A stretch of 64,000 nt of DNA, from positions 1,984,001 to 2,048,000 of the forward strand of contig NZ_CP011308.1 in NCBI RefSeq assembly GCF_000987835.1, in the 5' to 3' direction. The position numbers and the translations under genes are program-made. The DNA is from Sulfurovum lithotrophicum. GTDB lineage: Bacteria > Campylobacterota > Campylobacteria > Campylobacterales > Sulfurovaceae. This document shows, piece after piece, positions 3,329 through 34,501 of this stretch. The notes beneath the pieces were generated by a model. That model saw only the letters and a program-made list of their open reading frames with translations. It was not told the DNA's origin and searched no databases. Each line of letters opens with the position of its first letter. Positions within the stretch are counted from its first letter, which is position 1.

Positions 3329-4450
3329 TTAAAACTTTAAAGTCTCTTGTTTAATAAGCTCTGGTTCCATCAGACTTTTGTCTTTAAGATCTATCGCTTT
3401 AGCACAGTCACTTTTGGCCAGCTGTACATAGAGTGAAACAGTTACGACATCACCTTTCTGTAGAGAAGGGATGTCATACGTCAGTATTTTTGTCTCTTTG
3501 GCATTAAGATTGTGTACACTGCCCTCTGTCGCTGTAGCAGGGACGATTATTTTTTTACCGTCTTTTTTAAAACTGTAGGAAAAATACCCCTGTGCATCTT
3601 CGGCAGGGTCTTGCTTGTAGTTTCGCCAGATCATTTTGCCTTTTCGCATGACCTTTATCTTTAAAAACTTTGCACGTGCAGGCTGTATGATCAACGGATG
3701 CTCCATTTTATTGTCCAGCATCACTTCCAGCTTTTTATTTTTCACTGTAAGTGTAATATCGACACCTGTTTTTCTGAATGCCTTGTCATGAATACCAAGG
3801 AATTTGTGGCTGGCATGCTGTCCTCTGGCACGCTTGTCCATCTTCTCTGCACCACCCTCTACCTCCGGCATATGGCAACGGATACACCCCAGACTGTTCT
3901 GTGTGTCATCCATGGCTTTAAAAATAGTAACATTGTTATCGTTCAGTTTATGCGAATGGCACCCCATACAGACCTTCTTGGCATAGACCGGATTCGATGC
4001 AGAAGAGTGTTTGTCACTCGCATCGGGATGGACCAGTCTGCCGTACAGCGTAGGCTTGTAGTGCTCCGCCTGTCTTGCTTTGGTATTGATATTGAACTGA
4101 TGTGCCTTCTTGACATAGGCTATCGTATGACAGAAATAGCATGAAATAGCATCAGTATGGGTCTTGTTGGCTTTATCGGGTCTTGCTTTGCCGCTTAGAA
4201 GATCATCCATATTGTCCGCCATGGGCATATGGCAGGTGGCACAGGCATATTTTTTACTGTCGGCAGTATCGGCTACCTTGCGGTGCAGTTCATCATTGAA
4301 ATAGCTTTTGGAATGCTGTGAGCTTTGAAATTCATCATAGATATTCTCATGACACTCTTTACAGGAATGGTTGTCCATATATTTGGCGGCAGAAAAAGAA
4401 AAAAGTGTGAGAAATAAAATCAGAAGCCTGATTAGCGCTGTCCGTTCCAT
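3329..4450 (-). CDS. Pentaheme c-type cytochrome with C-terminal beta-rich domain
   Basis: A 373-residue secreted or membrane-anchored protein with an N-terminal hydrophobic signal (LIRLLILFLTLFSFSAA) and five CxxCH heme-binding motifs: CKECH, CATCH, CYFCH, CMGCH and CIRCH. They are spread over roughly residues 30-190, with extra histidines available as axial ligands. The remaining 170 residues lack heme motifs and look beta-sandwich-like. The arrangement resembles the broad cytochrome c554/multiheme family. Its place directly after nirS suggests periplasmic electron transfer linked to nitrogen-oxide reduction, but that role is inferred. The ATG at 4450 is preceded by AGGATCACAG. A strong double hairpin separates it from nirS, so its expression may differ from that of nirS. 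Confidence 0.8.
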   Translation of the reverse strand: MERTALIRLLILFLTLFSFSAAKYMDNHSCKECHENIYDEFQSSQHSKSYFNDELHRKVADTADSKKYACATCHMPMADNMDDLLSGKARPDKANKTHTDAISCYFCHTIAYVKKAHQFNINTKARQAEHYKPTLYGRLVHPDASDKHSSASNPVYAKKVCMGCHSHKLNDNNVTIFKAMDDTQNSLGCIRCHMPEVEGGAEKMDKRARGQHASHKFLGIHDKAFRKTGVDITLTVKNKKLEVMLDNKMEHPLIIQPARAKFLKIKVMRKGKMIWRNYKQDPAEDAQGYFSYSFKKDGKKIIVPATATEGSVHNLNAKETKILTYDIPSLQKGDVVTVSLYVQLAKSDCAKAIDLKDKSLMEPELIKQETLKF

Positions 4451-4460
4451 CTGTGATCCT

Positions 4461-4520
4461 GGTAATTTATTGAGATGATCCTTGGATCATCTCAATAAAT
4501 TACCCTCTCCCGAAGGAGAG
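4461..4520 (-). terminator. Double hairpin at the 3' end of nirS
   Basis: Two hairpins in tandem, read on the minus strand just after the nirS stop. The first is CTCTCC-UUCG-GGAGAG (4505-4520), with the very stable C(UUCG)G tetraloop. The second is a perfect 21-bp stem with a 2-base loop (arms 4461-4481 and 4484-4504). No clear U-run follows. They could terminate transcription or protect the nirS mRNA end. Confidence 0.75.
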
Positions 4521-4533
4521 AGTAAGAGTTGGA

Positions 4534-6288
4534 TTAAGCACCCGGTACGTGTTGTCTATGCTCAACAGAGTATGTAAAGGTAGGTGTAGTCAAGTTTTCG
4601 ATGTACTTGATGAACTTACCTGTTTCTGATTCGTAGATACCGATTCTACCGGTGGTCCACTCAGAGATCATTGTCCACTTACCATGGTTCGCAGGCTCAG
4701 CGTGAAGGAGTCTTGGCTGCACAGGGTCTTTAACCTTGGCACCATGTTTTCCTTCTGCTACAGGAGGCATAAGCTTCTCGTTACTCATCTTGGAAGCTAC
4801 TTCGTTCACAGGTATTTTTTCATACTGTGTCGCATCCCATTCCTGAAGGACTTTTCCGCTTTTCGCATCGATCAGCTGACCCTTTGCTTTACCGACTTTG
4901 ATGATTCTGTCAGTCTCAAGTGTCTCTTTGTTGATCAGGTGCACTTCGTTGTACTTGTCTGGCTTGCCAAGAACACAGTCAGACCAGATCCATGGTGTAT
5001 CTTCTCCCGTACCGACGAAGAGGCCACCACCTGCTGTTTTTACCTTCTTCACAATGTTCCAGCCTGGAGATTCCCAGATGACCACTGAACCGAAGTTCAT
5101 AGAGTTCGTTGCATTGAGCTGCTTGCCGAGTTTCTTGTTGAACCAGCTTGAACCCTGACCTGGGTGCGGCTTGGATTTTTTACCGGTATGTACTTTGGCT
5201 GCCAAAGCTTTGGTTTTAAAGTCAACGATACCCATAAGATCTGAACCCTGTGAAGCGATCTGGAAGTATCTACCGAAATCTTCACCTTTATTCTCATTCA
5301 GGAAACAGTCATGGAGGATCTTACCGATGTTTGGAATATCACCCACGATTGGGAAGTCAGGCTTAGAGTAATCAATAATATAGGTATGACCTGCATCTTT
5401 CAATGCCACAGCGAAGTATGGCCCATACGGTGTATCGGCGATACCGGCAACTCTTGATGGTCCGATCTGTCCGTCAGGATCGATCACACGGCTGGTATCA
5501 TAGGCTTTTAGAGGCTTAAGTGTATGTGCATCACACAGTACGGCACCACCTGGATTGTAGTTACCCGCTATGACATATTTACCATCCGGAGATACAGCAA
5601 GGCCTCTTGACTCCTGTCCGACCTGTACAGAGGCGACAGCCGGCTGACCCGGTGCACCGATATCGAACATTGTCAATCTACCTGAACGTGAGATGGAGTA
5701 GGCATATCTAGGCTCTGCTTTGTTAGTCACTGTTACGTGTACCGCGAAGCCTGCTTTATGTCTGGAAAGTACTTTACCTGTTGTAGAATCGATAAAGTCA
5801 ACCAAAGAAGCATCTCTCTCTGTCGCAAAAGTAATGTCTTTTACATTTTTGACATCTCCGCCTTTATATTTAAGATTACCGTTCTTGTCTACAGGATACT
5901 TTTTAGCCAATGCATCGACATCTGCCAATTTAATCCAAGTCTGCTGCACTTTCTCAAGATCAAGTTTGAGCTCGACAGTGTTCTTCCAGTCCATCAGCCA
6001 GTTAACCATTCCCGCTGCATCGTCTTTTGAGAATTTAGCACTCCACGCAGGCATTGCTGTATTTTCTCTACCATGCAAGATAGTTGCAGCTAAATTCTCT
6101 GCATTCTTCTTTTTAAGTGCTTTAGGTCTAAGGTCGGAACCGACACCACCCTGGTGGATTGGACCGTGACATCCCTGACACTCTTTCTCATACATCTTGG
6201 CAAAATCCATATTGGATGTACCTGCAATAGCCAGTGTTGCTACAAAACTTGTTGCTGCAGCCAATCCTAAAATTCTGTTTAATTTCAT
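4534..6288 (-). CDS. nirS: Cytochrome cd1 nitrite reductase (NO-forming)
   Basis: A 584-residue periplasmic enzyme reducing nitrite to nitric oxide. A signal peptide covers about residues 1-22. A cytochrome c domain follows with heme motif CQGCH (C37, C40, H41) and a downstream AMPAW methionine region. From about residue 120 on is the eight-bladed heme d1 propeller, with typical segments (SRSGRLTMFDIG, RGLAVSPDGKYVIAGNY, DCVLGKPDKYNEVHLI). Histidines expected to line the d1 site are present in the propeller. The length is typical and the gene intact. The ATG at 6288 has AGGAG six bases upstream. It is bounded by a hairpin on the 5' side and a double hairpin on the 3' side, suggesting segment-specific mRNA stability. 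NO made here would be consumed by NorCB encoded just upstream. Confidence 0.97.
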   Translation of the reverse strand: MKLNRILGLAAATSFVATLAIAGTSNMDFAKMYEKECQGCHGPIHQGGVGSDLRPKALKKKNAENLAATILHGRENTAMPAWSAKFSKDDAAGMVNWLMDWKNTVELKLDLEKVQQTWIKLADVDALAKKYPVDKNGNLKYKGGDVKNVKDITFATERDASLVDFIDSTTGKVLSRHKAGFAVHVTVTNKAEPRYAYSISRSGRLTMFDIGAPGQPAVASVQVGQESRGLAVSPDGKYVIAGNYNPGGAVLCDAHTLKPLKAYDTSRVIDPDGQIGPSRVAGIADTPYGPYFAVALKDAGHTYIIDYSKPDFPIVGDIPNIGKILHDCFLNENKGEDFGRYFQIASQGSDLMGIVDFKTKALAAKVHTGKKSKPHPGQGSSWFNKKLGKQLNATNSMNFGSVVIWESPGWNIVKKVKTAGGGLFVGTGEDTPWIWSDCVLGKPDKYNEVHLINKETLETDRIIKVGKAKGQLIDAKSGKVLQEWDATQYEKIPVNEVASKMSNEKLMPPVAEGKHGAKVKDPVQPRLLHAEPANHGKWTMISEWTTGRIGIYESETGKFIKYIENLTTPTFTYSVEHRQHVPGA

Positions 6289-6317
6289 TTGTTCTCCTTT
6301 TTTAAAAACATCAATGT

Positions 6318-6350
6318 AACATAGATAAAATGGATCATTTTACCTATGTT
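6318..6350 (-). promoter_or_regulatory. 15-bp hairpin in the nirS leader
   Basis: Arms 6318-6332 and 6336-6350 form a near-perfect inverted repeat with a 3-base loop. In the minus-strand transcript the single mismatch becomes a G-U pair, so all 15 positions pair. It lies 30 bases before the nirS ATG, between the 53-residue gene and nirS. It may be an mRNA-stabilising or processing hairpin, or an operator. Confidence 0.6.
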
Positions 6351-6404
6351 TTACAATACGTTTTACGAAGAGCTAACCCATAGCCCTTCACAATATTGCA
6401 GGAT

Positions 6405-6566
6405 TTACTTTTCCTGCTGCAATCTCTTTTTCTCACTGAAATAGATCCAGAACATCGGTAAAATAATTATCGTATGTAAAAAGATCGTCAGTGTCAGAGG
6501 TCCCTGATTGAGCCAGCCAAAAAAACTTGGTACGACATCAGTAAACGGTTCAAATAACATTCCCAT
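6405..6566 (-). CDS. Small 53-residue membrane protein between norB and nirS
   Basis: A short ORF with an ideal ribosome site (AAGGAGAGAGAA before ATG 6566). It encodes 53 residues with one clear transmembrane helix (LTLTIFLHTIIILPMFWIYF) followed by a charged tail (SEKKRLQQEK). A second in-frame ATG lies two codons in. I do not recognise the family. The strong ribosome site, the position between norB and nirS on the same strand and the membrane topology suggest a small accessory to NO or nitrite reduction (assembly, stability or electron transfer), but no function can be assigned from sequence. Confidence 0.7.
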   Translation of the reverse strand: MGMLFEPFTDVVPSFFGWLNQGPLTLTIFLHTIIILPMFWIYFSEKKRLQQEK

Positions 6567-6589
6567 TTCTCTCTCCTTCTTTTTTAGTT

Positions 6590-6608
6590 GGTACGGAAGA
6601 TCCGTACC
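6590..6608 (-). terminator. Hairpin between norB and the 53-residue gene
   Basis: GGTACGGA-AGA-TCCGTACC, an 8-bp perfect stem ten bases after the norB stop codon. On the plus strand it is followed by a T-run; in the operon direction it is followed by AACTAAAAAAG. It may attenuate transcription or act as an mRNA processing signal rather than stop transcription fully. Confidence 0.5.
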
Positions 6609-6617
6609 TTTTTGTAT

Positions 6618-8063
6618 TTAGGCAGCCTGTGCTGCTTTTTGCTCTTTACCAATGGTAAGAAGATCCCACACAAGGTAGATGAATCCTACGAATGTCACCA
6701 CACCCATAATCGCTCTCCAGACCATAGCCTGAACAAACCAAGGCAACTCCTGCGCAGCAAAGAATGCAGTCCATCCGGCACCAAGCTCAGCTCTTTCTAC
6801 AAGTACCTGCTCATAACCGGCAATCGTCAAGGCTACAGTCATTCCCAGTACACCAAACACAATAAGGAAAATCCCCATTTTAGATTTAAAGGTTGCCTTT
6901 AATCTCTCAATACCATACGCATACTGAACACCCAGGTACATCATCCCGATAAGGATCGTAGCATAAGCCCCGAAGAATGCCAGGTGACCGTGAGCCGCTG
7001 TAAACTGTGTACCGTGTGTATAGATATTTACCTGTGGCAATGTGTGGAAGAATCCCCAAACACCTGCACCCAAAAAGTTACCAAACGCGTTTGTTACGAT
7101 CCATGCAATAGCCGGTCCATTATTTGCAACAGCCCCTTTATGACCTTCTGCTTTTGCTATACCCTGTTCTTTACCCCAGTCGTAGAGTACGTGAACAAAC
7201 ATTGCTACCAATGGAACTGGTTCCAGTGCTGAGAATAGCGCACCAATTTCCCACCAGTACTCAGGTGTACCGATCCAGAAGTAATGGTGACCCATACCAA
7301 GGATACCAGAACCAAATAACATAAGAACTTCGATCCATAGCCACATTTCAACGATCTCTCGTTTAGCACCGATGATCTTGATAAGTGAATACGCTGCAAG
7401 AACTCCTACAAATACTTCCCAAGTCGCTTCAACCCAAAGGTGTATAACCCACCACCACCAGAATTGGTCCATAGAAATGTTATCTGTGAAGAACATACCT
7501 GCAACATAAAGACCGGCAAGCGCAAGCAAGTCAGCGACCATCACTGTCATGATCCCTGTTTTCTGTCCCTTCATAAAGGTTGCAAAAACATTCCAGTAAA
7601 AGATAAGTACAACTACGACGATACCGATATCGGCCCATCTTGGTGCTTCAACATACTCTCTACCTTCGTTGATCAGCCAGATAGATGCTTCAGTACCGGC
7701 ACCGACCTGAATAAAGATATATACAAGTACAACCACTGTTACAGCAGCTGTTAGAACCCAGAATGCGAGTTTGCCAAGTCCGGCATGCACCAACTGTTCA
7801 CCTGTTTCATCAGAAAGCATGAAATAGACCGATCCGATCATTGCATAAAGCATCCAGACGACCAGTGCATTGATGTGTACCATTCTGGCAACGTTAAAGT
7901 CAAACAGTTCAAACAAGAACCCCGGAACCAGGAATTGTATCGCAGCGATAAGACCCATAAGAAGCTGTGCACCAAAGAGTATGATCGCTACTCTGAAATA
8001 CATCATTCCTAATTCTTTACCTTTATCACCCGCAAATTCATTTGTTTTAATACTAGTGAGCAT
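6618..8063 (-). CDS. norB: Nitric oxide reductase catalytic subunit NorB (cNor type)
   Basis: A 481-residue, twelve-helix heme-copper oxidase superfamily member that reduces 2 NO to N2O with electrons from NorC. The metal and heme ligands are visible: VIHLWVEATWE (FeB His plus the two conserved Glu), GMGHHYFWIG (two more FeB His) and AAHGHLAFFGAY (His ligands of heme b3 and low-spin heme b). An in-frame start exists 27 bp upstream. The ATG at 8063 is chosen because AGGAGG lies five bases before it and the family begins there; this gives an 11-bp overlap with norC. The length fits the short cNor form, without the extra N-terminal quinol domain of qNor. Confidence 0.97.
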   Translation of the reverse strand: MLTSIKTNEFAGDKGKELGMMYFRVAIILFGAQLLMGLIAAIQFLVPGFLFELFDFNVARMVHINALVVWMLYAMIGSVYFMLSDETGEQLVHAGLGKLAFWVLTAAVTVVVLVYIFIQVGAGTEASIWLINEGREYVEAPRWADIGIVVVVLIFYWNVFATFMKGQKTGIMTVMVADLLALAGLYVAGMFFTDNISMDQFWWWWVIHLWVEATWEVFVGVLAAYSLIKIIGAKREIVEMWLWIEVLMLFGSGILGMGHHYFWIGTPEYWWEIGALFSALEPVPLVAMFVHVLYDWGKEQGIAKAEGHKGAVANNGPAIAWIVTNAFGNFLGAGVWGFFHTLPQVNIYTHGTQFTAAHGHLAFFGAYATILIGMMYLGVQYAYGIERLKATFKSKMGIFLIVFGVLGMTVALTIAGYEQVLVERAELGAGWTAFFAAQELPWFVQAMVWRAIMGVVTFVGFIYLVWDLLTIGKEQKAAQAA

Positions 8064-8724
8064 TTGTGCCTCCTGCTTTGAATTGATCAACAGTTTTCGA
8101 GAAGTTTCTTGGGAAACCGTTGGTGTCGATACTACTCATATGCTTGAGGAAAGCTACCAATCCTTTTGCTTCATCTGCGGTAATACCGAGATTTGGCATC
8201 ATACGTGCATGTGTAGGATACTGTGAAGGATGCTGAAGGAATTCAGCCATTGCTTCCTCGACTGTACTCTTTCCTGTCATACCCTGAAGCGGTCCGCCTT
8301 TCTGCCATGCAGGATCCAACCATGCTTTTGTAAGATCCGGAGCAAAATAAGCACCGTTACCTAAAAGTGTATGACAATTCATACAGTTCTTTGCCTGAGA
8401 AGTCAGTTTACCAAGGTGTAGCAATGCTGCTGCATCCTTTTGACTCCACTCTTTACCGAAGAATGGCTGTTTTTCACCGATCACCGGTACCTCATGCCCT
8501 CTTTTTTTACTCATTTTGTAATCAATTTTATAATTGATAACCGTTGCTGCCGGTACTCTCTTGTCTACCCCGTTCTTAAGGTCTGCATCTGTACCCATAC
8601 TGATCTGTCCAAGCGTATCGAACGAAAGCCAGATAAGCAAAATCGTTGCAAATCCTGTTACCCATGCCGCTGAACGACGCCAGAATGGAATACTCGTCCA
8701 TACCGAAACATTTTTGTTAGCCAT
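8053..8724 (-). CDS. norC: Nitric oxide reductase cytochrome c subunit NorC
   Basis: A 223-residue membrane-anchored monoheme cytochrome c. One N-terminal transmembrane helix spans about residues 19-38, followed by a periplasmic domain. The heme motif is CMNCH (C114, C117, H118), and ARMMPN near 174-178 supplies the axial methionine. It passes electrons from bc1-reduced cytochromes to NorB. A longer reading from 8763 exists, but the ATG at 8724 follows AAAGGAGGACAC and starts a normal N-terminus. The protein is longer than the roughly 150 residues of classical NorC because of about 60 extra residues between helix and heme. Overlap with norB implies coupling. Confidence 0.93.
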   Translation of the reverse strand: MANKNVSVWTSIPFWRRSAAWVTGFATILLIWLSFDTLGQISMGTDADLKNGVDKRVPAATVINYKIDYKMSKKRGHEVPVIGEKQPFFGKEWSQKDAAALLHLGKLTSQAKNCMNCHTLLGNGAYFAPDLTKAWLDPAWQKGGPLQGMTGKSTVEEAMAEFLQHPSQYPTHARMMPNLGITADEAKGLVAFLKHMSSIDTNGFPRNFSKTVDQFKAGGTNAH

Positions 8725-8774
8725 GTGTCCTCCTTTTTTATTTATAAGACGCTTTTTGAACAAAGTCCAACAAA

Positions 8775-8821
8775 GCTACGCTAACGCTGAGCCAACTTCA
8801 GCAGTTGGCTCATGCAGCTGG
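8775..8821 (+). repeat. Dispersed stem-loop repeat, copy 1
   Basis: Begins with GCTACGCTAACGCTGAG and contains the hairpin GAGCCAAC-TTCAGCA-GTTGGCTC (8789-8811). A second copy with the same lead, the same loop and a different but still paired stem lies at 31618-31664 in the opposite orientation. It occupies the gap between norC and the 116-residue membrane gene. Confidence 0.75.
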
Positions 8822-8855
8822 CCGCATTGATATTTTGTTCACAAAACATACTTAT

Positions 8856-9206
8856 TTATTTTGTATCCTGCACCGTATCGTCTGCTTCTTCATATCGCTC
8901 ATCCGCTGCACTTATCAGATAAAAATAAAGATGCGGGATAAAGAAATACGCTACCATCGTTACCATCAGCACTTTTACGGTGAAATGGTTACTCTGGATG
9001 AGCATCGCGAAGTCGTACAGGAAGTAAGTTTGTAATGCCCAAAATAGATACCCTACAGGCATCCACTTTTTGGAAAAGTACCCCATTTTGGCAAGGGTGA
9101 TGATCGCTGCATACCCTATACCAAAAAGAAGTACCAGTGTCGATTCAATGAAGATCGGTAAGAACTGATCCAACGCGATCTCCGGACGAACGATTAACTG
9201 CTCCAT
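8856..9206 (-). CDS. Small multi-spanning membrane protein at the head of the nor genes
   Basis: A 116-residue protein with about three hydrophobic helices (FLPIFIESTLVLLFGIGYAA, MPVGYLFWALQTYFLYDFA, VKVLMVTMVAYFFIPHLYFY) and an acidic C-terminal tail (ADERYEEADDT). The ATG at 9206 follows AGGAGACATGA. I do not recognise a named family. It is the first gene downstream of an FNR-type promoter and precedes norC-norB, so a role in NO reductase assembly or in the same stress response is plausible. That is inference from position only. Confidence 0.7.
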   Translation of the reverse strand: MEQLIVRPEIALDQFLPIFIESTLVLLFGIGYAAIITLAKMGYFSKKWMPVGYLFWALQTYFLYDFAMLIQSNHFTVKVLMVTMVAYFFIPHLYFYLISAADERYEEADDTVQDTK

Positions 9207-9266: not shown

Positions 9267-9308
9267 ATTATGACAGTTTAGAGGTTAGAAGAGCTTGACA
9301 TATATCAA
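9267..9308 (-). promoter_or_regulatory. FNR-type promoter driving the nor/nir genes
   Basis: A box TTGAC-ATAT-ATCAA lies at 9295-9308 and a -10-like CATAAT on the minus strand at 9267-9272. The box centre falls exactly 41.5 bp upstream of the predicted start near 9260, the classic class II FNR/DNR arrangement. The first gene starts at 9206. Confidence 0.7.
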
Positions 9309-9395: not shown

Positions 9396-9761
9396 TTATT
9401 CAACGATACATCTCGCAGCAAAGAAAGGTCTTGCGTAATTGGGTGAGACAAAGTTGTCACCTTCAAGTCTCCAGTCGTTTTCCTTTGTAATATACACCGA
9501 CTGTGCCACTTTACGTTGCATTCTGCTTTCACAGATAACGGTCTGCCCATTCTCGAAAGCAGTTTGGACCGCTTCCATTCTGCTCGTGGTGATCTTGTAA
9601 TGCAGCCCTACCATGATGGCGATCACCAGTGATACCCACAAAAGCCCTCTCTTCCATGCACCTTTTGCCATGAACGGCCGCGTACCGACAAAAAGAGTGA
9701 TGAGAAGAATGATGCCGCCTAATATAAGGTAGGCACCTTCGAGATAGAAAAAGTTTTTCAT
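9396..9761 (-). CDS. Membrane-anchored protein of the denitrification block
   Basis: A 121-residue protein with two N-terminal transmembrane helices (YLILGGIILLITLFV and RGLLWVSLVIAIMVGLHY). A roughly 65-residue soluble, probably periplasmic, C-terminal part follows, containing two cysteines (VICESRM and AARCIVE) that could form a disulfide. No family recognised. It is divergent from the next gene pair and shares with it an FNR-type box, which ties it to the nir/nor genes. It could be an assembly or redox helper, but the sequence gives no direct functional motif. Confidence 0.7.
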   Translation of the reverse strand: MKNFFYLEGAYLILGGIILLITLFVGTRPFMAKGAWKRGLLWVSLVIAIMVGLHYKITTSRMEAVQTAFENGQTVICESRMQRKVAQSVYITKENDWRLEGDNFVSPNYARPFFAARCIVE

Positions 9762-31567: not shown

Positions 31568-31617
31568 TTTGAGACCTTTTCATAGTTTTTTTAAGTAAGG
31601 CGTAAAAAACAAAGCAA

Positions 31618-31664
31618 CTAGTTGCTTGAGCCTGCTGCTGAAGCAAACTCAGCGTTAGCGTAGC
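31618..31664 (-). repeat. Dispersed stem-loop repeat, copy 2
   Basis: On the minus strand it reads GCTACGCTAACGCTGAG followed by hairpin GAGTTTGC-TTCAGCA-GCAGGCTC (31628-31650). Compared with copy 1 (8775-8821) the loop is identical while the stem differs but still pairs through G-U and compensatory changes. It lies about 50 bases upstream of the rpmE start. Confidence 0.75.
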
Positions 31665-34222: not shown

Positions 34223-34229
34223 ACCAACC

Positions 34230-34501
34230 ATAGGGCATCTCTAAAAACCCCAGATACTCATAATGGGTTTTGCAAATGTGAGATTTTGTAAGAGGCTTTC
34301 AAGTCCTAGCCAAAGCTAAGACGAAGTAAGCATCTTGTAAAAGATTGCGTTTGCAAAGCCCACCCTGTGGGCATCACTAGCTTTCGCCTATACGTCGTTA
34401 CTCTTTTTTGACTTAGCTACGGCTAGGCCTGCAAAAGAGTGCCTAGCCTAGACAAAAGCTAGAGATGTTATGAGCATATGGGGTTATTAGAGGTGCCCTA
34501 T
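34230..34501. mobile_element. 272-bp MITE-like element with 34-bp terminal inverted repeats
   Basis: Left end ATAGGGCATCTCTAAAAACC... (34230-34263) and right end, reverse-complemented, ATAGGGCACCTCTAATAACC... (34468-34501) match at 30 of 34 positions. The interior has no ORF but holds further partial inverted repeats built on CTAGCC/GGCTAG and AAAGCTA/TAGCTTT. It fills almost all the space between moeA and queD, and its right end contains the queD stop codon. It looks like a non-autonomous transposon or large intergenic repeat unit. Confidence 0.75.

Follow-up and report, generated by a model that had tools for sequence, protein, structure and literature searches.

Intergenic RNA hairpins as candidate boundary elements in the nor-nir gene cluster of Sulfurovum lithotrophicum

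Layout of the cluster and its putative promoter

We analysed a 64,000-nucleotide stretch of the Sulfurovum lithotrophicum genome (the window), which holds a gene cluster for the reduction of nitrite to nitrous oxide with RNA hairpins in its intergenic gaps. The cluster is read from the minus strand in the order y121, x116, norC, norB, a gene for a 53-amino-acid protein (53-aa gene), nirS, cytM and trkA, and contains the following features:

9396-9761 (-), y121
9295-9308 (-), Crp/Fnr-type box TTGATATATGTCAA of the inferred operon promoter upstream of x116
8856-9206 (-), x116
8748-8829 (-), copy of a dispersed ~86-nt three-hairpin repeat in the x116-norC gap, including the hairpin at 8788-8812
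8053-8724 (-), norC, Cytochrom_C match
6618-8063 (-), norB, COX1 match
6590-6608 (-), norB-53aa hairpin, 8 bp, loop UCU
6405-6566 (-), 53-aa gene after norB, without Pfam match
6352-6400 (-), nirS leader hairpin A, core GAAGGGCU-AUGGGUU-AGCUCUUC
6318-6350 (-), nirS leader hairpin B, 15 bp, one G-U pair
4534-6288 (-), nirS, cd1 nitrite reductase, Cytochrom_D1 match
4500-4525 (-), trailer stem 1, UUCG-capped, 11 pairs, terminator-like, followed by UUUAUU
4461-4504 (-), trailer stem 2, 21-bp perfect inverted repeat with 2 nt between the arms, abutting AGGA before cytM
3329-4450 (-), cytM, cytochrome c554-like multihaem protein, Cytochrome_C554 match

The centre of the TTGATATATGTCAA box lies ~41 nt ahead of the inferred start upstream of x116. 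The main promoter of the cluster is probably located here, because nearly all relatives examined have a Crp/Fnr-type box 74-104 nt upstream of x116. Two Crp/Fnr-type regulators are encoded in the S. lithotrophicum genome, and Campylobacterota have been described as lacking FNR, ArcA and NarP orthologues (PMC6682613). In six related loci (L034, L067, L075, L078, L079 and L092), a Crp/Fnr-type box (9-10 of 10 positions) also lies in the gap upstream of nirS, which suggests that their nor and nir promoters are separate. We could not recognise such a box in the 53-aa-nirS gap of the window, and nirS thus probably relies on readthrough from the x116 promoter in this strain. A palindrome, TTTACTTAAGTAAA, followed by TTACACTT or TACACTT, is located upstream of nirS in six other loci (L036, L040, L043, L049, L060 and L073) and is absent from the window's gap before nirS; it is a possible operator or promoter.

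In every locus where we located both genes, the 53-aa gene directly follows norB; this includes L162 and L163, where nirS lies elsewhere. Its product perhaps belongs to NO reductase as a small subunit or an accessory protein. In L158, L159, L161 and L167 the 53-aa gene is followed by a different, more distant NirS-like gene with the N-terminal motif DRCAGCHGMLRKGALGP, and those of these loci with a short gap after the 53-aa gene have no leader hairpins.

Folding of the gaps and the repeat before norC

An initial annotation had placed strong hairpins at four junctions of the cluster, and every arm was found as placed. The hairpin leading into norC (annotated at 8789-8811) spans 8788-8812 with 10 bp and a loop of 5 nt, the norB-53aa hairpin (6590-6608) has 8 bp and a loop of 3 nt, and the 15-bp stem before nirS (6318-6350, loop of 3 nt) is fully paired in RNA when its one G-U pair is included. 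Both the UUCG-capped stem (4500-4525) and the perfect 21-bp stem (4461-4504) are present after nirS. When compared with dinucleotide shuffles, the x116-norC, norB-53aa, 53aa-nirS and nirS-cytM gaps have folding z-scores of -5.1, -4.4, -6.5 and -9.4, respectively, and for each gap none of 200 shuffles was as stable as the real sequence.

For the genomic background we sampled twenty stretches of 20 kb (400 kb in all) from the same genome, which yielded 86 co-directional gaps 25-150 nt long. Only seven of these have a z-score below -4 and none contains a perfect stem of at least 15 bp; the four cluster gaps score -4.5, -3.9, -6.7 and -9.5 in this comparison, with perfect stems of 10, 8, 15 and 20 bp, respectively. 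The gaps flanking nirS fold about equally to or better than any of the background gaps. Six co-directional gaps in the window have a z-score below -2, four of which belong to the nor-nir cluster. Searches with Rfam covariance models, at gathering and at relaxed thresholds, returned no credible match on the cluster hairpins or on the norC-leader repeat, and matches to MIR1508 and preQ1-II were dismissed as far below threshold. Elsewhere in the window, a convergent gap (34223-34497) folds to -118.6 kcal/mol (z-score -9.9) and bears imperfect terminal inverted repeats (GGCATCTCTAAAAACCCC / GGGGTTATTAGAGGTGCC); it looks like a miniature transposable element.

The annotation had also read the four junctions as segmented by design. 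At the level of conserved RNA structure this is supported for three of them, which are conserved across the family and include a trailer that stays with nirS, and it is not supported for the norC leader, a dispersed repeat missing from most relatives including the closest. The norC-leader hairpin forms the centre of the repeat copy at 8748-8829, within an x116-norC gap of 131 nt. The repeat, whose sequence is about AATGCGACTAGTCGCATGAGCCAACTGCTGAAGTTGACTCAGCGTTAGCGTAGCTTTGTTGGACTTTGTTCAAAAAGCGTC, has a second copy in the window at 31606-31664 (+) and further copies in L094-L098 and L103-L114. There are six copies in the S. lithotrophicum genome; the repeat is present in 69 of 78 genomes of the genus, and in 52 of 249 genomes of the order Campylobacterales, from 17 genera. 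Across 13 aligned copies, 96% of the cells in the three helices are paired, and changes on both sides affect 13 of the 24 pairs. The copies in L061, L094 and L097 contain extra sequence in the middle hairpin. In 36 of 49 family loci the x116-norC gap is shorter than 25 nt, and the locus closest in norB (98%; L055, whose genome we take to be that of Sulfurovum NBC37-1) has a gap of 11 nt without the repeat. A few relatives (L061, L073 and L054) share the repeat at this junction. We read the x116-norC hairpin as a repeat insertion that is no conserved feature of the operon and stands outside the set of candidate boundary elements.

This norC-leader element, alone among the cluster hairpins, is comparable to REP/RAYT-type palindromic repeats, which are likewise short, structured and found in many copies per genus; it differs from them in being a three-hairpin unit of ~86 nt without an Rfam match. 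The genome contains three Y1_Tnp genes, and no copy of the repeat was found within ~1.5 kb on either side of them, leaving a RAYT-linked REP identity unsupported. Like hairpins of the form GGTGCTGTG-TCCT-CACAGCACC and GGTGTTGTC-AGGA-GACAGCACC recur in the same genome (L220, 8113-8208; L221, 7548-7676; L234, 11417-11517). They sit in several co-directional gaps and are possibly a second dispersed hairpin repeat.

Conservation of the three remaining hairpin sets

We fetched 60 loci of the family and located their genes. Comparison of these loci indicates that three of the four hairpin sets are conserved in position and structure while differing in sequence, with some family members lacking one or another hairpin; our counts of compensatory changes cover the nirS elements, that is leader and trailer. 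At the norB-53aa junction, a perfect stem of at least 7 bp (G-U allowed) is found in 37 of 53 cases, versus 5.7 in base shuffles. The sequences of these stems differ among species, and the median z-score of the gap is -3.5 over 46 loci. The 53-aa gene has such a hairpin in front of it in L075 and L168 too, two loci in which no norB was found upstream. The norB-53aa hairpin of the window is terminator-like on the opposite strand only; on the coding strand no U-rich tract follows either this hairpin or the 15-bp leader hairpin, and the minus-strand list of terminator-like stems includes neither of them. For these two hairpins we rejected the idea that all hairpins are terminators.

The nirS leader contains, in addition to the 15-bp hairpin B, the larger hairpin A, which the initial annotation had missed. 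The 53-aa-nirS gap has a z-score below -2 in 41 of 56 loci (median -3.0). Many relatives' leaders carry a GAGGRCU-GGGUAG-AGYCCUC hairpin followed by a second hairpin and GAUUUUAUC. Pairing in the first of these hairpins reaches 90.8%. Over the whole leader model we counted 24 double-changed cells versus 7.4 in shuffles; pair counts for the second hairpin are a lower bound owing to its misalignment by MAFFT. A covariance model of the leader gives strong matches upstream of nirS only, and its only other matches in 31 whole genomes are two weak ones (E 0.03 and 0.08). Leaders differ among families, and the model, built from relatives, does not match the window's own leader. Hairpin A of the window resembles the relatives' first hairpin in a divergent version, and their homology thus rests on position and on the similar stem and loop.

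The conserved loop GGGUAG and GAUUUUAUC, which lie beside covarying stems and essentially only before nirS, could also be part of a cis-regulatory RNA through which a signal or regulator governs the translation or termination of nirS, with the trailer being a separate element. We regard this as quite unlikely, given that the leader sequence varies strongly between genera and between families, with a divergent version in the window itself, and that we identified neither an alternative terminator nor a sequestered ribosome-binding site.

Stem 1 of the trailer has 11 pairs, five of them GC, and is followed by UUUAUUGA, in line with the GC-rich stem and U-rich tract of an intrinsic (Rho-independent) terminator. 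It shares its GC-rich stem, tetraloop and UUUAUU tail with such terminators; unlike theirs, its tail is short and also supplies the 5' arm of stem 2. As nucleotides 4500-4504 belong to both stems, the two cannot form at full length together. Trailers have a z-score below -2 in 56 of 61 loci (median -4.4). Among trailers of the window's type from 22 species, 22 of 27 pairs show compensatory (double) changes versus 9.8 in shuffles, and the signal is lost when the partner is slid by one column. G-U outnumbers A-C by 53:11 in stem 2 and by 19:7 in stem 1 (counts from related sequences, which are not independent), pointing to trailer stems that act as RNA of the coding strand. A comparison of folding energies between the two strands was uninformative, since coding controls have the same bias. 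Our search for a second genomic copy of the trailer found only the trailer itself and its own inverse, and on this ground, together with the excess of G-U over A-C, we set aside the 44-bp palindrome as a DNA-binding site or mobile repeat.

The hypothesis that every hairpin is an inserted repeat with no role in the operon is true of the norC-leader element and very unlikely for the set as a whole. It is contradicted for the nirS elements: the trailer is single in the genome, the leader model matches essentially nirS only, and both hold their place across genera with compensatory changes. The tandem trailer hairpins stay with nirS regardless of whether its downstream neighbour is cytM, trkA or a different gene, in keeping with boundary elements that separate nor, nir and cytochrome segments.

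Judged from nirS loci of other families, a hairpin immediately downstream of nirS is general in the order. The Arcobacter/Poseidonibacter family and others have one hairpin only, which often carries a U-rich tail and looks like an ordinary terminator; the extra ~20-bp stem is seen in two families only, the window's and one other (f6). A rival reading is that of ordinary transcription units, in which stem 1 terminates nirS, a nirS promoter lies in the gap, the other hairpins add little and no processing takes place. The terminator-like stem 1, the single hairpins of other families and the Crp/Fnr-type boxes before nirS in several relatives, where separate transcription may suffice, all argue for such units. 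However, the window's gap before nirS has no such box, the ~20-bp stem 2 exceeds the needs of a terminator yet is conserved in two families, and the norB-53aa hairpin is conserved without a U-tract. We give this explanation a modest chance of being correct. Given stem 1 and the boxes before nirS in several relatives, ordinary transcription control may still explain part of any difference in level.

Possible roles at the segment borders

The hairpins at 6590-6608, 6318-6400 and 4461-4525 are, on balance, better explained as RNA boundary elements of a composite nor-nir cluster, which would let its segments reach different levels. The three conserved sets probably mark off separate message segments, bracketing a norCB-53aa segment, a nirS segment and the following cistron; cutting and stabilisation of the transcript at these borders are plausible. 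Stem 1 would most likely act as a leaky intrinsic terminator and as a block at the 3' end. Polymerases that read through would produce the ~20-bp stem 2, which may either stop 3' exonucleases or serve as a substrate for RNase III, with cleavage just before the downstream ribosome-binding site. RNase III takes duplexes of 11-20 bp (PMC8687705); its gene is present in the genome, and by length the 21-bp stem 2 qualifies as a predicted RNase III site. The nirS 5' end would derive from an internal promoter in several relatives or, as is likely in the window strain, from processing of a nor readthrough transcript, with the structured leader shielding the nirS message from 5' attack. Campylobacter and Helicobacter have been described with RNase Y and J and without RNase E (PMC8687705, PMC11821409), and a structured 5' leader could thus protect nirS RNA from such enzymes.

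A bolder possibility is that the leader array (the GGGUAG-loop hairpin with its GAGGRCU and AGYCCUC arms, GUCU..AGAC, GAUUUUAUC and a further stem before the ribosome-binding site) and the tandem trailer stems form an undescribed pair of cis-regulatory RNAs dedicated to cd1 nitrite reductase, matching NirS output to NO reductase; we consider this rather unlikely.

For the boundary elements, the closest known systems are the intercistronic stem-loops that set segment abundance in the puf, E. coli and cip-cel operons. Differential decay governed by such stem-loops was reportedly described for the puf operon by Chen et al. in 1988. Stable RNA structures also underlie differential decay in E. coli operons, where the protective ones lie mostly within coding regions and use RNase E (PMC5927463). 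The cip-cel operon undergoes selective RNA processing and stabilisation and has several intergenic stem-loops, with orthologous ones in related species (PMC4423207). The nor-nir hairpins resemble those of puf and the E. coli operons as stable structures inside one operon, at segment borders and conserved in relatives, and those of cip-cel in that several intergenic stem-loops of one operon have orthologues in relatives. They differ from the E. coli structures in lying in gaps between genes, and RNase E is reported to be lacking in Campylobacter and Helicobacter; processing sites and transcript ratios were measured for cip-cel, whereas the nor-nir elements are known by their structures and conservation. 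In common with boundary stem-loops, the gaps hold stem-loops beyond chance expectation, and at three of the four junctions these are conserved in orthologous operons.

We found no paper describing denitrification as controlled at the RNA level in these vent bacteria, and nothing direct in titles and abstracts on Sulfurovum nor-nir transcripts or on processing at nirS hairpins. Nitrite reductase makes toxic NO, which NO reductase removes, and the ratio of the two enzymes therefore matters. The conserved RNA elements at the nor-nir borders provide defined places at which an RNA-level setting of the NirS/NO reductase ratio may be tested, in a group where the species studied so far rely on RNases Y, J and III instead of RNase E.
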